A stretch of DNA of 64,000 bases from positions 1 to 64,000 of the forward strand of contig JAFGHJ010000048.1 of NCBI GenBank assembly GCA_016930175.1, in the 5' to 3' direction. Made by a program: the position numbers and the translations under genes. The stretch is from Caldifarciminota bacterium (lineage in GTDB: Bacteria; Hydrothermota; UBA3072). The notes below the pieces were generated by a model. That model saw only the letters and a list, made by a program, of their open reading frames with translations. It did not search any database and was not told where the DNA came from. Within the stretch, counting starts at the first letter, position 1; the number at the start of each line of letters is the position of its first letter. Shown here piece after piece: positions 13,600 through 55,602 of this stretch.

Positions 13600-14072
13600 A
13601 CTTTAATTATTACTCCTTAAAAAACATAATCTACTCTCTTTCCACTCTTCAAATATTAATTTAAAGTGGTTCTCAAGAGCGCTGATTTTATTATTATTTC
13701 TAATTCACGCAACTATTTTTACAATTATATTACGTTACAATCAAAAAAAGTCAACACCTTTTTATTGTAATTTTAGCCACAAAGACACCAAGACACAAAG
13801 AAAAATACCTCTGTTCTTAAAACCTAACTTTACCCCTAATTATCTCAAACAGAGACACGGAGACACAGAGTTCTCAGAGCCCACACAACACCATTCCGAG
13901 ATTTTTAAAACAGAGAATATTAAGAACACAAAGTAAGAAACAAGCAAATTTTCGGTAGTTTTTACACAATTCAAAAAGAGATAATGGGGTTTAGTGTGTT
14001 TTGAGTGTTTCGTGGTTTAAAAAACAAATAAAAAAATCAGTGTTAATCTTGTGTAATCTCGTGGTTCCTTTT
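13600..14072. repeat. intergenic region with asnS leader and degenerate repeats
   Basis: Nearest asnS lies a leader of about 120 bases that can form an imperfect hairpin (13635-13645 pairing with 13664-13679). Further out are an AGCCACAAAGACACCAAGAC block (13776-13800), an AGAGACACGGAGACACAGAG block (13850-13870) and GTGTTTCGTGGTTT-type runs (13995-14065). No gene seen. Confidence 0.55.
13724..13754 (-). promoter_or_regulatory. promoter of the asnS-gap-rpmA run
   Basis: Minus strand TTGACT (13754-13749) with TAATAT at 16 bp (13732-13727) or a perfect TATAAT at 19 bp (13729-13724). Lies about 125 bases before asnS. Confidence 0.5.
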
Positions 14073-16503: not shown

Positions 16504-17181
16504 CTACGAACTCTTTTTGATTACTTCCACCCCATTTCCCTTCCCCACAATAACAATATCGACAACATCCAGAAAAAGGCCGTTTTCGACGACGCCGGGA
16601 ATCATGTTAAGTTCAACTTCCAATTTATAAGCATCTTCGATCGCACCCAAACTTGCGTCAATTATATTATTACCGCTATCGGTAAGATATTTTTCTCCAT
16701 CTCTCATCCTGATTCTGGGATTATATCCCCGGGCTTCAAGTTTTTTAAAAACGTTTCCAAGCGCATAAGGAACGACTTCGATAGGTAATGGGAAAGCACC
16801 TAATTTATCAACCATCTTAGCGGAATTTACGACCCATAGATTTTTCTTTGAGGATTTTGCCACAACTTTTTCGAATAACAAAGCCCCTCCGCCTCCCTTT
16901 ATTCCGTTAAAATTTGGATCTACCTCATCCGCGCCGTCGATGGTTAAATCGATTGTCTCGACATCATCGATAGATAACAGAGGAATATTTAAAGACTGTG
17001 CTAATGTATCCGTGGAAGATGAAGTTGAGACCGCTTCTATCTTTAAACCATTCTTTACCATTTCACCTATTTTTTTTATAGCGTAATAAAATGTCGAACC
17101 TGTACCTAGACCTAAAATCATTCCGTCTTCAATAAAATCCGAAACCTTCGACCCGGCTAATTCTTTTTCTTTATCACTCAT
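16504..17181 (-). CDS. rpiA: ribose-5-phosphate isomerase A
   Basis: 225 aa, normal length. Interconverts ribose 5-phosphate and ribulose 5-phosphate. Seen: GLGTGSTFYYAI phosphate loop (24-35), TSSSTDTLA, DLTIDGADEVDPNFNGIKGGGGALLFEKVVA with the catalytic Asp/Lys, and PGVVENGLFLDVVDIVIVG near the end. Own promoter; AAGGAGG upstream with a rather long spacing of about 12 bases. The 16317-16503 gap behind it carries the nfnA promoter and CAGTCTTCAGTCGTGAGTC-type repeats. Confidence 0.97.
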   Translation of the reverse strand: MSDKEKELAGSKVSDFIEDGMILGLGTGSTFYYAIKKIGEMVKNGLKIEAVSTSSSTDTLAQSLNIPLLSIDDVETIDLTIDGADEVDPNFNGIKGGGGALLFEKVVAKSSKKNLWVVNSAKMVDKLGAFPLPIEVVPYALGNVFKKLEARGYNPRIRMRDGEKYLTDSGNNIIDASLGAIEDAYKLEVELNMIPGVVENGLFLDVVDIVIVGKGNGVEVIKKSS

Positions 17182-17432
17182 TCTTTAAATACCCCTCCTT
17201 AAATTTCATATTAATATAAATTAACAACTCCAAAACAAATATAACTAATGCTCATTGCATGTCAAGAATTAAAAAAATCTAACCACAGATTACACCCTGA
17301 ACGGTCGTTACTCCCTACAGGGCAGGCAGATTATCACAAGATAATTGCACCGCAAAGACGCAAAGAACGCAGAGAACACAGAGATTTTTACTGTTGGTCT
17401 GTTTATCGGTTAGTCGGTTAGGCTGTTTTTTA
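17182..17432. repeat. rpiA leader and degenerate repeats
   Basis: No gene. After the rpiA promoter come a CACCGCAAAGACGCAAAGAA block (17348-17384) and a CGGTTAGTCGGTTAGG run (17407-17423). An inverted counterpart of the first lies at 19980-20010. Confidence 0.5.
17238..17265 (-). promoter_or_regulatory. promoter of rpiA
   Basis: Minus strand TTGACA (17265-17260), 16 bp, TATATT (17243-17238). Confidence 0.72.
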
Positions 17433-17508
17433 CCCACCAACACACCAACCCACTAACTTTAGTAACTTTTTTGACTGGTGACTGTCGACTGAAGACTTGC
17501 GACTAAGT
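17433..17508. repeat. left arm of 76-bp inverted repeat
   Basis: Matches the reverse complement of 19600-19675 at 74 of 76 positions, starting CCCACCAACACACCAACCCA and ending GCGACTAAGT. Encloses the toxin-antitoxin pair and the esterase gene. Internally it is itself made of short imperfect repeats (CCAACACACCAACCCAC; GACTGGTGACTGTCGACTG). Confidence 0.9.
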
Positions 17509-17511
17509 TCC

Positions 17512-17547
17512 CTTTTCACAATTCAATGCTTGACCCTGTTAACACAC
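17512..17547 (+). repeat. left copy of direct repeat flanking the toxin-antitoxin module
   Basis: CTTTTCACAATT, an 8-base variable middle, then GACCCTGTTAA; recurs at 18201-18236. The copy ends exactly at the toxin stop codon (17548). Confidence 0.65.
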
Positions 17548-17814
17548 TTATTTGTTTCTGTAAACGGTTCTTCTATGTTCTACCCGGAGAATTATTATTG
17601 TTTCCTGCTCGAAAGCGATTGAATAAATCACTCTCCAATCTCCCACTCTATATCTGTACAAACCTGCAAATTCACCTCGCAAAGGAACTCCGAGGTCTGC
17701 CGGAGCTTTTATAAGATGCCGTCTTATCTTCTTCGTTATTCTCCCGGCAACTTCAGGCGCAAGCTTCTGCAGTTCTTTCCTTGCGTCTTCATGAATGATT
17801 ACCTTATAAGCCAA
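17548..17814 (-). CDS. RelE/ParE-family toxin
   Basis: 88 aa. Residues run YKVIIHEDARKELQKLAPEVAGRITKKIRRH, then GVPLRGEFAGLYRYRVGDWRVIYSI and ILRVEHRRTVYRN, the complete RelE/ParE fold with the conserved basic residues (LRGE, YRYRVGDWRVIY, HRR) expected of an mRNA-cleaving RelE. Start is a TTG at 17814 overlapping the last 11 bases of the antitoxin gene, so the two are coupled. The module sits inside direct and inverted repeats, suggesting acquisition as a unit. Target not proven; a ParE-like gyrase inhibitor is the alternative. Confidence 0.88.
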   Translation of the reverse strand: MAYKVIIHEDARKELQKLAPEVAGRITKKIRRHLIKAPADLGVPLRGEFAGLYRYRVGDWRVIYSIAFEQETIIILRVEHRRTVYRNK

Positions 17815-18013
17815 GGTCTTTCTCTACTTCTTCCAAAGTATAATATTTTGCCTTTTTGTCATACAGCCTCTCTAATGCGATATAACAACCTCTGGTTTCC
17901 GCCAGATACGCACTGAGAGCTTCTTTGAAAATATGAGTCTTCGTAACCCCGGTTTTCCGGGCGAATTCTTCTATTTCCGACTCTAATTTTTTTGGCAATC
18001 TTACACTGGTCAT
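17804..18013 (-). CDS. ribbon-helix-helix antitoxin (RelB/CopG type)
   Basis: 69 aa. N-terminal MTSVRLPKKLESEIEEFARKTG is a ribbon-helix-helix DNA-binding domain, and the C-terminal KAKYYTLEEVEKDLGL is the tail that would wrap the toxin. GGAGG lies 7 bases before the ATG. As usual for such pairs it precedes the toxin and probably represses its own promoter, whose start region carries a 17-bp imperfect palindrome. Confidence 0.88.
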   Translation of the reverse strand: MTSVRLPKKLESEIEEFARKTGVTKTHIFKEALSAYLAETRGCYIALERLYDKKAKYYTLEEVEKDLGL

Positions 18014-18049
18014 TCATTTCCTCCTTTTTCTTTTTAAATGTAATTCAAT

Positions 18050-18066
18050 GTAATATATTGTATTAC
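18050..18066. promoter_or_regulatory. candidate antitoxin operator
   Basis: GTAATATATTGTATTAC: 6-bp perfect arms (GTAATA/TATTAC) around 5 bases, one further near-match inside. It spans the expected transcription start, just downstream of the -10 box at 18073-18078, where a repressor would block initiation. Confidence 0.5.
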
Positions 18067-18072
18067 GTTATA

Positions 18073-18100
18073 AATATAATACTATTTATGATTCTGTCAA
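18073..18100 (-). promoter_or_regulatory. promoter of toxin-antitoxin operon
   Basis: Minus strand TTGACA (18100-18095), 16 bp, TATATT (18078-18073). Confidence 0.7.
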
Positions 18101-18200
18101 GTGGGCAGAAACACTAATTCACATGTAGAACCTGTAGTTGTTGTAGTTTTTTTATCGATTGACGCATGACGCTCGACGTTCAACTCATGACGCAGCTAAT

Positions 18201-18236
18201 CTTTTCACAATTAAAGGTCAGACCCTGTTAATACAT
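18201..18236 (+). repeat. right copy of direct repeat flanking the toxin-antitoxin module
   Basis: CTTTTCACAATT, variable middle, GACCCTGTTAA as at 17512-17547. Preceded by a degenerate GACGCATGACGCTCGACG run (18160-18195). Confidence 0.65.
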
Positions 18237-18260
18237 GCCTTGATATTACGTTGATATAAA

Positions 18261-18288
18261 TTGACAACAATAGATTTTACTATATATT
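18261..18288 (+). promoter_or_regulatory. promoter of secreted esterase
   Basis: TTGACA (18261-18266), 16 bp, TATATT (18283-18288); leader about 60 bases. Confidence 0.7.
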
Positions 18289-18355
18289 ATAGAAGTAATA
18301 GTTAAACAACAGGTGACGACAAAAAAATATTATAAAAATTTAAGGAGGCAATAAG

Positions 18356-19495
18356 ATGAAAAGGAGTTTATATCGAACAATCTTATTAAGTATATTTTTG
18401 TTATTCATTGTTTCTTTTGCACAATATGATACTCTGGATTATGACGGTATCGATAGAACATATCTCCTGCATGTCCCTTCATCATATGATGGACTTTCCG
18501 CTGTACCACTTGTTGTGGTTATACATCCTTACAATGGTTATGCCCCCGGCTTCGAAATTGAGACCGGTTTTAGTAACAAAGCGGATGCGAATGGCTTTAT
18601 TGCTGTTTATCCTGAGGGATTGGGAGATCCAAGAAGCTGGAATGCAGGTTCCTGTTGCGGTTATGCAGTGATGAACAATATCGATGATGTTGGATTCATT
18701 TCCGCACTCATAGATACACTTACAGCAAACTACAACATCGACTCGACAAGAATATTTGCCACAGGTTTTTCCAACGGATCGATGATGGCATACCGTCTGG
18801 CAGCGGAATTATCCAATAAAATTGCCGCTATCGCAGGAGCAGCAGGGCAAATGATGCTGGATGAATGTAATCCGGTTCGAGCGGTACCAATCATGCATTT
18901 ACATTCATTGAACGACGATATTTGCCTTTATGAAGGAAGCTCTGAAGGATTTATCTACCCGTCTGTTGAAGCCGTAATCGATATCTGGGTCGGAATAAAT
19001 GGTTGCGACACAGTGCCGGATACTGTTATCGATAATAGTGGTATACTCATGGTTAGAAAATGGACGGCTCAGACCAGTAATGCCGATATATTTTTATACA
19101 CCAGACCCACAGGTGGCCATACCTGGCCTACGGGTACCGTTTCGGCCACCGACTCGGTCTGGGATTTTTTCGTCGAACATCCAATGGACCCGGCGACCGG
19201 TGTCGATGATAATGACAACCCGGATGCCATCAAAAATTTTATCTTGAAGCAAAATTATCCCAACCCATTCGACGCTACAACAACAATATCTTTTTTGGCT
19301 CCGAACCGGGAGAAGGTGACTCTAAAAATCTTCGACCTGCTCGGTAACGAAGTTGCAATATTATTAAACAAAGAAGTAAGCGCAGGCGAACACAGAGTTA
19401 TTTTTGAATCTAAAAACTTACCTGCCGGGGTCTATTTCTACCGGCTTCAGGCAGGGGCATCCGTAGACGCAAAGAAACTCGTCATACTGAGATAG
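18356..19495 (+). CDS. secreted PHB-depolymerase/feruloyl-esterase-like hydrolase with T9SS sorting domain
   Basis: 379 aa. Signal peptide 1-22 (cleavage near FAQYD). Alpha/beta-hydrolase domain of the LpqC/poly(3-hydroxybutyrate) depolymerase group: PLVVVIHPYNGY (51-62), NAGSCCGYAV, DSTRIFATGFSNGSMMAYRLA with nucleophile Ser139 in GFSNG, and GGHTWP holding the catalytic His. Residues about 295-379 form a type IX secretion sorting domain: NYPNPFDATTTISF, VTLKIFDLLGNEV, LPAGVYFYRL, and a KKLVILR end. It would be exported by Sec, cross the outer membrane by T9SS and act on ester bonds in plant polymers or polyesters. AAGGAGG precedes the ATG. Enclosed by the 76-bp inverted repeat. Confidence 0.88.
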   Translation: MKRSLYRTILLSIFLLFIVSFAQYDTLDYDGIDRTYLLHVPSSYDGLSAVPLVVVIHPYNGYAPGFEIETGFSNKADANGFIAVYPEGLGDPRSWNAGSCCGYAVMNNIDDVGFISALIDTLTANYNIDSTRIFATGFSNGSMMAYRLAAELSNKIAAIAGAAGQMMLDECNPVRAVPIMHLHSLNDDICLYEGSSEGFIYPSVEAVIDIWVGINGCDTVPDTVIDNSGILMVRKWTAQTSNADIFLYTRPTGGHTWPTGTVSATDSVWDFFVEHPMDPATGVDDNDNPDAIKNFILKQNYPNPFDATTTISFLAPNREKVTLKIFDLLGNEVAILLNKEVSAGEHRVIFESKNLPAGVYFYRLQAGASVDAKKLVILR

Positions 19496-19599
19496 TTTCG
19501 GAATAAATAACCGTATAATTCGTCACGGATTAACACGGATATGCACTGTTTTTTTGACCAACGACTATGTTTGCTATAAACTAATACCTAAAACCAAGG

Positions 19600-19675
19600 A
19601 CTTAGTCACCAGTCTTCAGTCGACAGTCACCAGTCAAAAAAGTTACTAAAGTTAGTGGGTTGGTGTGTTGGTGGG
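19600..19675. repeat. right arm of 76-bp inverted repeat
   Basis: Reverse complement of 17433-17508 with two differences near its left end (ACTTAGTCACCAGTC here against the complement of GACTTGCGACTAAGT). Confidence 0.9.
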
Positions 19676-19771: not shown

Positions 19772-19814
19772 CCAAACTACACATTTTCTTCCGGGACGAA
19801 AGTGTGTAGTTTGG
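19772..19814. repeat. REP-like hairpin
   Basis: CCAAACTACACA (19772-19783) pairs perfectly with TGTGTAGTTTGG (19803-19814); the inner bases continue the stem with two mismatches to a very small loop at CCGGG. No T-run follows, so it is not a typical terminator. Confidence 0.65.
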
Positions 19815-20024
19815 CATTGAAAGGCAAAAAGAGTAACTGAGTTATGCGGCGTGTTTAAAAAAACTTTTCTCTCTGCGGACTTTGCGTCTTTGCGGTGTAA
19901 TTAGGATTTTGGATTTAGGGATTGGGACTTAGGAAAAAACAATAAAAATCACCGTGTGCTCTGTGTGAGATGTTGTTTTTCTCTGCGTTCTTTGCGTCTT
20001 TGCGGTGTAATTCCCCTTGAGATT

Positions 20025-20234: not shown

Positions 20235-20263
20235 TTGACTTAAGAGAGTGAATTCATTATACT
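20235..20263 (+). promoter_or_regulatory. promoter of 20294 gene
   Basis: TTGACT (20235-20240), 17 bp, TATACT (20258-20263). Confidence 0.6.
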
Positions 20264-20293: not shown

Positions 20294-21094
20294 ATGAAAA
20301 AAAGAAGTGTTATAATTTTGATTTTATTGGCTTTCGTCGCGGGGGTTGTGGTTGGGCATCTGTTGTCTCCGTATATTTCTATATTCGGTGAATCTTATGA
20401 ACAGGTAAGCGAAGCGATAACAATCGTATCCGTCAATGAAAATATGAAAACCATAGAAAAAGCAGTGAAGAAATTTTCCTGGGAAAACGGTCGCTACCCA
20501 AAAAATAGTGACGTTTCATGGATAAAAAAAGAAGTGGGAATAGCTCTCGAAAATCCGATCACTTATAAAACAGGAGAAGGCAAAGCTTACATGTCCGGAG
20601 AAGCAGATAAACCGGGAATCGTGGGATTCGAAAGTGATTCTCTGGGTAAGATTTGCAGGATTACAGGATACGGTGTCGATGATGCAATTGAACTTTCGAT
20701 GTATGAAAAAGTTTCTGAAAAACCTATGAGCGAAATAAAAGGAGAAAAATCCACGTCGGGCAGGATTGAAAGCGTAGAAAAAGACAAAGAAGAATCTACA
20801 TGGAATATTTTCGGAGCCAATATTAAAGTTACGGAAAGAGGCAATGAAAAATGGAATTTTTTCTGGGAATTCACGGTTTACAATCAGGAAAAAGAACCAA
20901 TTACTCTTACGGCTAATGTAGAATTTTCGGATCAAGAAGGTACCATCATAGCAGATGAAGCCCTTCAAAATCTGAACATCCCGGGAGAGGCATCCAAAGC
21001 TTTTAACGGTTATACCTTAATAAACGCGGATATAGCCGACAGAGTTCAGGAAATAAATATAAAAGCAAAAAGGGAAAAATTTGTAGAGGAGTAA
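20294..21094 (+). CDS. membrane-anchored protein with pilin-like central region
   Basis: 266 aa, not recognised as a named family. A single N-terminal membrane helix (6-28) is followed by NENMKTIEKAVKKFSWENGRYPKNS, wording very like the start of pseudopilin/GspG globular domains (N..T...A...F....GRYP), and PITYKTGEGKAY. After a charged linker (145-170) a second beta domain (175-266, ending INIKAKREKF) resembles FxLYD/immunoglobulin-like domains. There is no prepilin peptidase Gly-Phe site before the helix, so it is more likely a bitopic membrane protein than a pilin. GGGGG-rich site before the ATG. Stands alone. Confidence 0.6.
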   Translation: MKKRSVIILILLAFVAGVVVGHLLSPYISIFGESYEQVSEAITIVSVNENMKTIEKAVKKFSWENGRYPKNSDVSWIKKEVGIALENPITYKTGEGKAYMSGEADKPGIVGFESDSLGKICRITGYGVDDAIELSMYEKVSEKPMSEIKGEKSTSGRIESVEKDKEESTWNIFGANIKVTERGNEKWNFFWEFTVYNQEKEPITLTANVEFSDQEGTIIADEALQNLNIPGEASKAFNGYTLINADIADRVQEINIKAKREKFVEE

Positions 21095-21337
21095 TTTATT
21101 TTCATAAATAGCTCCTGGCTTTTAGCCTTTGGCTGTTGGCTTTAAAAATAAAAAACTCTGTGTTCTCTGTGTCTCTGTGTGAGATTAATTCTGTGGTGTG
21201 GTGAAGTGGTTTTTAAACACAAAAAAAATTTCCTCCGTGCGCTCAGTGAGTTTTTCTTTTCTCTGTGTACTCTGTGATTCAATTGTTTTAGGGGTGTGTG
21301 GTTGGGCTTTGTGTTCTCCGTGCCTTTGTGGCTATTA
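21095..21337. repeat. degenerate repeat block
   Basis: TAGCCTTTGGCTGTTGGCTT (about 21120-21140) then CTGTGTTCTCTGTGTCTCTG runs and TGTACTCTGTGATTCAATTG (21155-21325). No gene. Confidence 0.55.
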
Positions 21338-28614: not shown

Positions 28615-28752
28615 GTACAAAAACCCAACCCCCAAGTAATTGGACGCAGATGAACGCAGATTAAGAAGGATTTATTTTTTGTTTTTACTAAATCTCAACC
28701 CCTAAATCCTAATTTTACTACAAATAACACAAATGTTTTTTTAGCCGTGAGC

Positions 28753-28888
28753 AGAGACTGTGCCAAAAGTCATATTTTTTTGCGTAGGGCAAACCTTTAG
28801 GTTTGCAAAACGGTTGAATACCAGTGTCTTAGCACGGCTAAAGCCGTGCCCTACGAGTTAAATTGGGAGTTTTGTCACAGCCTCAGCA
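28753..28888. mobile_element. 136-bp MITE-like element
   Basis: Flanked by GTGAGC at 28747-28752 and 28889-28894, a possible 6-bp target duplication. Near-terminal inverted repeats at 28751-28768 and 28870-28887 match at 15 of 18 positions (core CTGTGCCAAAA against TTTTGTCACAG). Inside is a nested structure: CGTAGGGC (28783-28790) with GCCCTACG (28848-28855), enclosing hairpins GCAAACCT/AGGTTTGC and GCACGGCT/AGCCGTGC. No coding capacity. Confidence 0.65.
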
Positions 28889-28999
28889 GTGAGCTGAAAG
28901 CTGTTAGCTGTTCTTCTCACCCAAATAAACAAAGAGCACAAAGACTCTATTTACTTTTTACTAATTAACCAATAAACTAATCAACCGATAAACTGAAGC

Positions 29000-33558: not shown

Positions 33559-34443
33559 ATGGGTAAATCGTTAAAAGCTCTTGAACATATTATGAAGCAG
33601 ATTTACACTGCTCAAAAAAATGAAATTACCGAATATCATATCTATTCCAATATAGCAAGATTAGTAAAAGAACAAAAAAATAAAAAAGTAATTCTCGATA
33701 TTGCAAACGAAGAATTGCGTCACGCGAAATTCTGGCAAACCATCACAAAAAAAGATATAAAACCAGACCGATGGCAAATTTTCAAATTCACCTTAATCGC
33801 CAGATTCTTGGGCTTTACCTTTGCAATAAAACTAATGGAAAAGGGAGAGGAACAGGCTCAGGTTAATTATATGGAAATCGCGGAATATATACCGGAAGCA
33901 GAACAGATCGCGGAAGAAGAAGAAAAGCATGAAAACGAATTGATTAATTTGCTCGACGAAGAAAGGCTCAACTATATGGGCTCGATTGTTCTTGGTCTCA
34001 ACGACGCTCTTGTGGAATTAACAGGAAGTCTTGCGGGTTTGTCCTTTGCTCTTCAAAAAACGCGTCTCATAGCGGCAGTCGGAATAATAACGGGAATTGC
34101 CGCCTCTCTTTCCATGGGCGCCTCCGAATATCTTTCAACAAAAGCCGAAGGAAACACGGAAAAAGCTCTTAAATCTTCACTTTACACAGGAGCAGCTTAT
34201 ATTATTACTGTTTTACTTTTAGTTTTACCGTATTTTATTTTTGACAACTATTTTTTTGCCCTGATGACAACTCTAATTGTAGGGGTATTAATAATATTTT
34301 TATTTAACTACTATGTTTCAATCGCTAAAGACTTACCTTTCAGAAAACGTTTTCTTGAAATGACATTTTTGAGCCTCGGCATCGCCGCCCTTTCTTTTGT
34401 GATAGGGATAGTAATAAGAGTTACTTTGGGAGCGGATATCTAA
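33559..34443 (+). CDS. ferritin-domain VIT1/CCC1-family iron transporter
   Basis: 294 aa. Residues 1-140 are a rubrerythrin/ferritin-like four-helix bundle with the metal ligands Glu21/Glu24 region (KNEITEYHIY), EELRHAKFW, and EAEQIAEEEEKHENEL. Residues 145-294 are a VIT1/CCC1 membrane domain: SIVLGLNDALVELTGSLAGL, GIAASLSMGASEYLSTKAE. This erythrin-VIT fusion is known to move ferrous iron out of the cytoplasm or into compartments using the soluble domain as an iron sensor. Lies 24 bp after the nucleotidyltransferase gene; it begins ATGGGTAAATCG after AGGAAG. Confidence 0.9.
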   Translation: MGKSLKALEHIMKQIYTAQKNEITEYHIYSNIARLVKEQKNKKVILDIANEELRHAKFWQTITKKDIKPDRWQIFKFTLIARFLGFTFAIKLMEKGEEQAQVNYMEIAEYIPEAEQIAEEEEKHENELINLLDEERLNYMGSIVLGLNDALVELTGSLAGLSFALQKTRLIAAVGIITGIAASLSMGASEYLSTKAEGNTEKALKSSLYTGAAYIITVLLLVLPYFIFDNYFFALMTTLIVGVLIIFLFNYYVSIAKDLPFRKRFLEMTFLSLGIAALSFVIGIVIRVTLGADI

Positions 34444-34685
34444 TAATAGGACGCAGATAAACGCATATTTAAAGGATTTTTTTTAAACACTAAACACTCT
34501 AAATACTCGAAACACCGCCATCCTTTTTTAATTTGTGTATAAAACACAAACGAAAAAAATAATTCTCACACAATGTTTTTTCTTTTTTTATCTTCGGTCA
34601 TCCGTTAACGGTCGTCTTCTTTCGTTTTTCCCATTTAACCATTTTACTATTTTGCTATTTAGCTGTACGAGAGTACTGTACTCCA
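34444..34685. repeat. degenerate repeat block
   Basis: AGGACGCAGATAAACGCATA (34448-34467), ACACTAAACACTCTAAATAC (34485-34506), TTTAACCATTTTACTATTTT (34635-34655). No gene. Confidence 0.5.
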
Positions 34686-55501: not shown

Positions 55502-55602
55502 GAATTCGGGACGCAGATAAACGCAGATTTACATAAAGTTCTTACCAATTAACTAATATACTAATTAACAAATTAGCAGATTCGTAGAATCCATAAAACA
55601 GC
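55502..55602. repeat. short degenerate repeat block
   Basis: GGGACGCAGATAAACGCAGA (55508-55527) and AATTAACTAATATACTAATT (55549-55568) between the phosphorylase cluster and larA. Confidence 0.5.

Follow-up and report, generated by a model that had tools for sequence, protein, structure and literature searches.

A 76-bp sequence that recurs in near-perfect mirror image around 2.1 kb of DNA in a Caldifarciminota bacterium raises the question of whether its two arms mark the ends of a mobile or flipping cassette that carries the genes between them. Within the window analysed here (a stretch of 64,000 nucleotides of contig JAFGHJ010000048.1), the mirror-image repeat probably does not have this role. 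We consider it likely that the arms belong to a dispersed repeat native to the intergenic DNA of this genome, of which they are two oppositely oriented copies, and that they do not carry the intervening genes.

The original prediction had described the repeat, its rank in the window, the lack of a transposase between the arms and an enclosed RelE-type toxin-antitoxin module and secreted esterase, all of which we confirmed. Positions 17433-17508 matched the complement of 19600-19675 at 74 of 76 bases (BLAST E 5e-30), with 65 bases identical in a row and similarity ending at both arm edges, and this was the top-scoring repeat pair of the window. The ORF list contained no transposase between the arms. 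The toxin and antitoxin form a type II RelBE pair (TIGR02385 and NF048017, both above cut-off) whose genes overlap at 17804-17814 as one operon, and the esterase carries a Por_Secre_tail domain. The features in and around the segment are as follows:

16504..17181, minus strand: rpiA, the left flanking gene, common to congener G001
17343..17389, minus strand: CTCTGTG/CTTTGCG-type word (on the plus strand: CGCAAAGACGCAAAGAACGCAGAGAACACAGAG), ahead of the hairpin here and at other copies
17393..17432, plus strand: first hairpin arm, degenerate (GTTRGTCN)n, and T-run loop, both part of the left repeat element but beyond the 76-bp arm
17433..17508, plus strand: left arm, made up of the second hairpin arm CCCACCAACACACCAACCCACTAAC (17433-17457), a linker (17458-17472) and a GACTNNN array (17473-17508)
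17512..17546, plus strand: further intergenic word (TTTTCACAATTCAATGCTTGACCCTGTTAACACA), with a second copy at 18201-18235
17548..17814, minus strand: RelE/StbE-family toxin (PF05016, TIGR02385)
17804..18013, minus strand: RelB-like antitoxin, ribbon-helix-helix (NF048017)
18356..19495, plus strand: secreted esterase/PHA-depolymerase-like protein with a T9SS type A sorting tail (Por_Secre_tail)
19600..19675, minus strand: right arm, an inverted truncated copy without the loop and first hairpin arm, made up of a GACT array (19600-19635), a linker (19636-19650) and a half hairpin (19651-19675)
20294..21094, plus strand: right flanking gene, without a Pfam or NCBIfam family (G001 homologue, 49% identity)

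Between the right arm and the right flanking gene, a 43-bp imperfect palindrome (CCAAACTACACA...TGTGTAGTTTGG) at 19772-19814 was also observed, which was missing from the terminator scan list.

Searching the genome for the 76-bp sequence, as the original prediction had proposed, located full copies at this locus only (the two arms themselves), while partial copies and motifs were scattered: about 20 partial matches lay elsewhere, of which the weakest did not exceed chance. Two motifs accounted for these matches, one being CCCACCAACACACCAACCCACTAAC and the other a tandem array of GACTNNN, and each arm is a composite of both, joining an (ACYAACNN)n half-hairpin to a (GACTNNN)n array. CCCACCAACACACCAACCCACTAAC is in turn half of a hairpin of degenerate 8-mers, in which (GTTRGTCN)n is followed by an A- or T-run loop and (CACYAACN)n. 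A genome pattern search for three consecutive GTTRGTNN units gave 49 overlapping matches, split 21 to 28 between the strands and spread over about 29 loci; the reversed control pattern had 0 matches in the genome. A recurring order was found at several loci, namely a CACAGAG-type word, the hairpin and then sometimes the GACT array, and elements with this order on contigs C47, C13 and elsewhere aligned beyond the left arm's edge. The left arm thus sits within a complete, longer repeat element and the right arm is a fragment consisting of half hairpin and GACT array alone, so the arm edges are not the edges of the element. With many copies, an intergenic location and both orientations, the family has the properties of a dispersed intergenic repeat (REP/STRR-like). 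Similarity between the arms is far above chance for random DNA, yet such a pair is of the kind expected here because copies of these motifs abound in the genome. In a 464-kb genome sample, which together with pattern searches underlies our repeat statistics and in which genes were crude ORF calls, there were 393 similar intergenic pairs (198 direct and 195 inverted), and the repeats from those pairs covered 13.3 of 53.6 kb of sampled intergenic DNA, about a quarter. Degenerate tandem words of the CTCTGTG, CTTTGCG, CGCAGATAAA, CACGGATTAA and CACGAAATA types, common to other loci, were seen throughout the window's intergenic DNA (1871-2804, 13773-14024, 17342-17392, 19866-20012, 21118-21228, 28637-28963, 34443-34543 and 55507-55569). 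Two other candidate roles were rejected: an RNA family, as an Rfam search of the window gave zero matches, and a 3'-end element in fixed orientation relative to genes, as the word types had no clear orientation bias (in small numbers).

This dispersal weakens the proposal that the arms delimit a unit able to move or invert, since they are pieces of a repeat whose other copies lie next to unrelated genes, most of them with housekeeping roles, such as glutamine synthetase, ATP synthase subunits, SufBD, signal peptidase II and YceG. In a non-autonomous cassette, the 76-bp arms would serve as terminal inverted repeats recognised in trans by a transposase, and RelBE and the esterase would be the cargo. 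The arms are nearly identical and the putative cargo is accessory and absent from G001, as such a unit would have it, and a homologous RelBE pair in relative G004 (contig C120) is likewise bracketed by inverted arrays. However, the flanks (TTTTTTA and AAGTGTG) contain no target-site duplication of more than 1 bp, and homology runs on past the left arm's edge into the hairpin and CACAGAG word of other copies. An inverted array pair on contig C13 of G004 encloses tsaB-rimI next to a MazEF-like pair (identities read from sequence), other RelE homologues (C12:113375 of this genome and contig C130 of G002) lack such brackets, the full arms occur nowhere else in the genome and a similar unit was not found in plasmid or phage records. 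We therefore regard a mobile cassette as unlikely. A genome-wide tie of the arrays to toxin-antitoxin genes was also rejected, as the 54 array neighbours included few of them among the families listed (25 of 97): the RelE gene, two AbiEii-type genes and one 23S IVP protein.

Long, near-perfect inverted repeats around 2.1 kb could also bound a segment that a site-specific recombinase inverts in a programmed manner, and inversion had been predicted to swap the promoters of rpiA and the 20294 gene. Promoter-like sites at the locus, which are consensus matches and whose total number was not above that of a shuffled control, were placed as follows:

17265-17238, minus strand: promoter-like site for rpiA
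18100-18073, minus strand, and 18261-18290, plus strand: strong inner promoter-like sites, lying in the gap that separates the two inner transcription units and pointing towards them
20235-20263, plus strand: promoter-like site for the 20294 gene

Since both outer genes have their promoter-like sites beyond the arms, and the strong sites within face the inner genes, inversion would not exchange promoters. Moreover, no serine recombinase or resolvase was found in the genome, and its two tyrosine recombinases are both on other contigs, making a programmed switch very improbable. Inversion might also be unprogrammed: the 65 identical bases would permit occasional RecA-type flipping, with gene conversion keeping the arms alike, and both the length of perfect identity and the far greater likeness of the arms than of other copies are in keeping with it. 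Orientation is not comparable with G001, however, whose interval contents differ, and although rare inversion of the segment by homologous recombination is possible, we doubt that it accounts for the arms.

Among the relatives searched, only the congener G001 had a match to rpiA. There, rpiA and the homologue of the 20294 gene enclose a 2125-aa protein with a T9SS tail in place of RelBE and the esterase. Read from its sequence, this protein (L040:8051-14428) resembles a peptidase of the C25 type that carries a T9SS-like tail. Searches of G001 with RelE and with the esterase catalytic domain gave no match (the tail alone matches widely), and none of three word types occurred within the 16 kb of G001 examined, where the arms are absent too. 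With the same flanking genes and different contents, the interval is variable and the genes of the segment are accessory, as had been predicted. No empty site lacking the segment, which had been suggested as a check, was found among the relatives that would reveal the inserted part. Two observations had been named in advance as telling against a cassette, of which scatter without a link to cargo was seen for the motifs, while identical gene order was not seen in the relative. Outside this genome, the RelE homologue most similar to the one here (48% identity) is that on G004 contig C120, where the RelBE pair (L285:1970-2810) is bracketed by inverted 8-mer arrays arranged as in the window, the left at about the same distance. 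Clear array pairs were not seen around other RelE homologues where their surroundings were read, and G004 is very rich in arrays, so we take the bracketed pair as a lead and not as a pattern; it leaves room for some link of the arms to the toxin-antitoxin module.

We next considered how unusual a nearby inverted pair is under a null that placed about 29 loci uniformly and not confined to the gaps between genes. The probability that one or more array pairs would lie within 2.5 kb was 0.58, and four such pairs were observed against 0.84 expected (P 0.008), so the copies are somewhat clustered. Repeat loci less than 3 kb apart matched about twice as often as distant loci, an excess that came partly from one clustered family (c29a). 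The feature that stays unusual is the 97% identity of the arms, the most alike non-tandem pair in the 464-kb sample, compared to 88-94% in other dispersed pairs. That this value is clearly above those of other pairs, and that both arms hug one accessory segment, count against reading the arms as mere repeat copies, and the state before copying is preserved in none of the relatives.

The simplest cause of the 97% identity that we infer for two copies of a dispersed repeat is local copying or homogenisation. The element would consist of a hairpin, with arms of degenerate 8-mers and a loop that is a run of A or T, and behind it a 7-mer array that is likewise degenerate. The copy on the left would be complete, and the one on the right a shortened piece of its interior, produced when the left copy was duplicated nearby in inverted orientation. 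Alternatively, conversion or template switching may have homogenised the two copies. The intervening genes would then be ordinary accessory genes in a variable interval, independent of the arms. Template switching is known to homogenise the arms of inverted repeats and to invert the spacer, but documented events have short spacers (PMC8604942), so that its extension to a 2.1-kb spacer is our inference. The loops of the small hairpins occur in both orientations relative to their arms (10 T-run and 6 A-run), as would be expected from template switching between inverted repeats (PMC8604942). Reading the arms as dispersed repeats does away with a mobile-cassette call that is plausible yet misleading, and implies that dispersed repeats can give rise to near-perfect inverted repeats in genomes of this kind.

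Resemblance to known systems was partial. An inverted repeat around a short segment recalls a MITE or other non-autonomous transposon, whereas here there is no target duplication, the arms are internal to a longer repeat and the segment consists of ordinary genes. Like REP/BIME sequences with RAYT, the element is an imperfect hairpin, intergenic and present in tens of copies in both orientations, but its hairpin arms are degenerate 8-mer tandem arrays. Mobilisation of the arrays by RAYT seemed doubtful, as counts of Y1_Tnp genes do not follow array presence among relatives (one in this genome and two in array-free G001). Comparable short tandem arrays are the heptamer STRR sequences of cyanobacteria. 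Patchy heptamer arrays with no evident mechanism of spread have been described in Beggiatoaceae, cyanobacteria and Bacteroidetes, and most TAACTGA arrays of a Beggiatoaceae genome lie just upstream of a start codon (PMC4679880). The arrays reported here share with both TAACTGA arrays (PMC4679880) and STRR short 7-mer-type tandem units, an intergenic location and a patchy occurrence over distant lineages; they differ in that several degenerate words, with units of 7, 8, 9 and 10 nt, are joined in an order that recurs, and one of these words is built as a hairpin.

The repeat family is odd and patchily distributed among relatives, and this wider phenomenon is of more interest than the arm pair. 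Three consecutive GTTRGTNN units matched 49 times here, 106 times in G004, 11 in G015, 6 in G005 and once in G002, and 0 times in G001 and the remaining relatives searched. Similarly, CTCTGTGNNCTCTGTG had 136 matches here, 59 in G002, 89 in G004 and 0 in G001, with scattered counts further away. Both searched patterns therefore match other genera, yet neither matches the congener, and a repeat landscape this dense without matches in a congener raises the question of how such sequences originate and spread. The string CCAACACACCAACCCACTAAC was present in one Prevotella MAG, inside a similar array. Strings from the arms and words were not found in the open-access literature searched, with the exception of one string in one paper. 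Tentatively, the arms might be part of an undescribed system of intergenic word arrays, in which degenerate tandem words of 7-10 nt, one of which forms a hairpin, are combined into recurring composites. Such a system, abundant here and in some relatives and not found in the congener, would pass between lineages by an unknown route, and its arrays would be duplicated locally in opposite orientation, in some cases on either side of toxin-antitoxin genes. Arrays of CTCTGTG occurred in 112 stretches of IMG/VR contigs, which are putatively viral. On contigs C419, C513 and C541 of G030, several loci had CTCTGTG arrays in minus/plus pairs separated by 272-274 bp, a spacing and orientation that suggest a small element with inverted ends.
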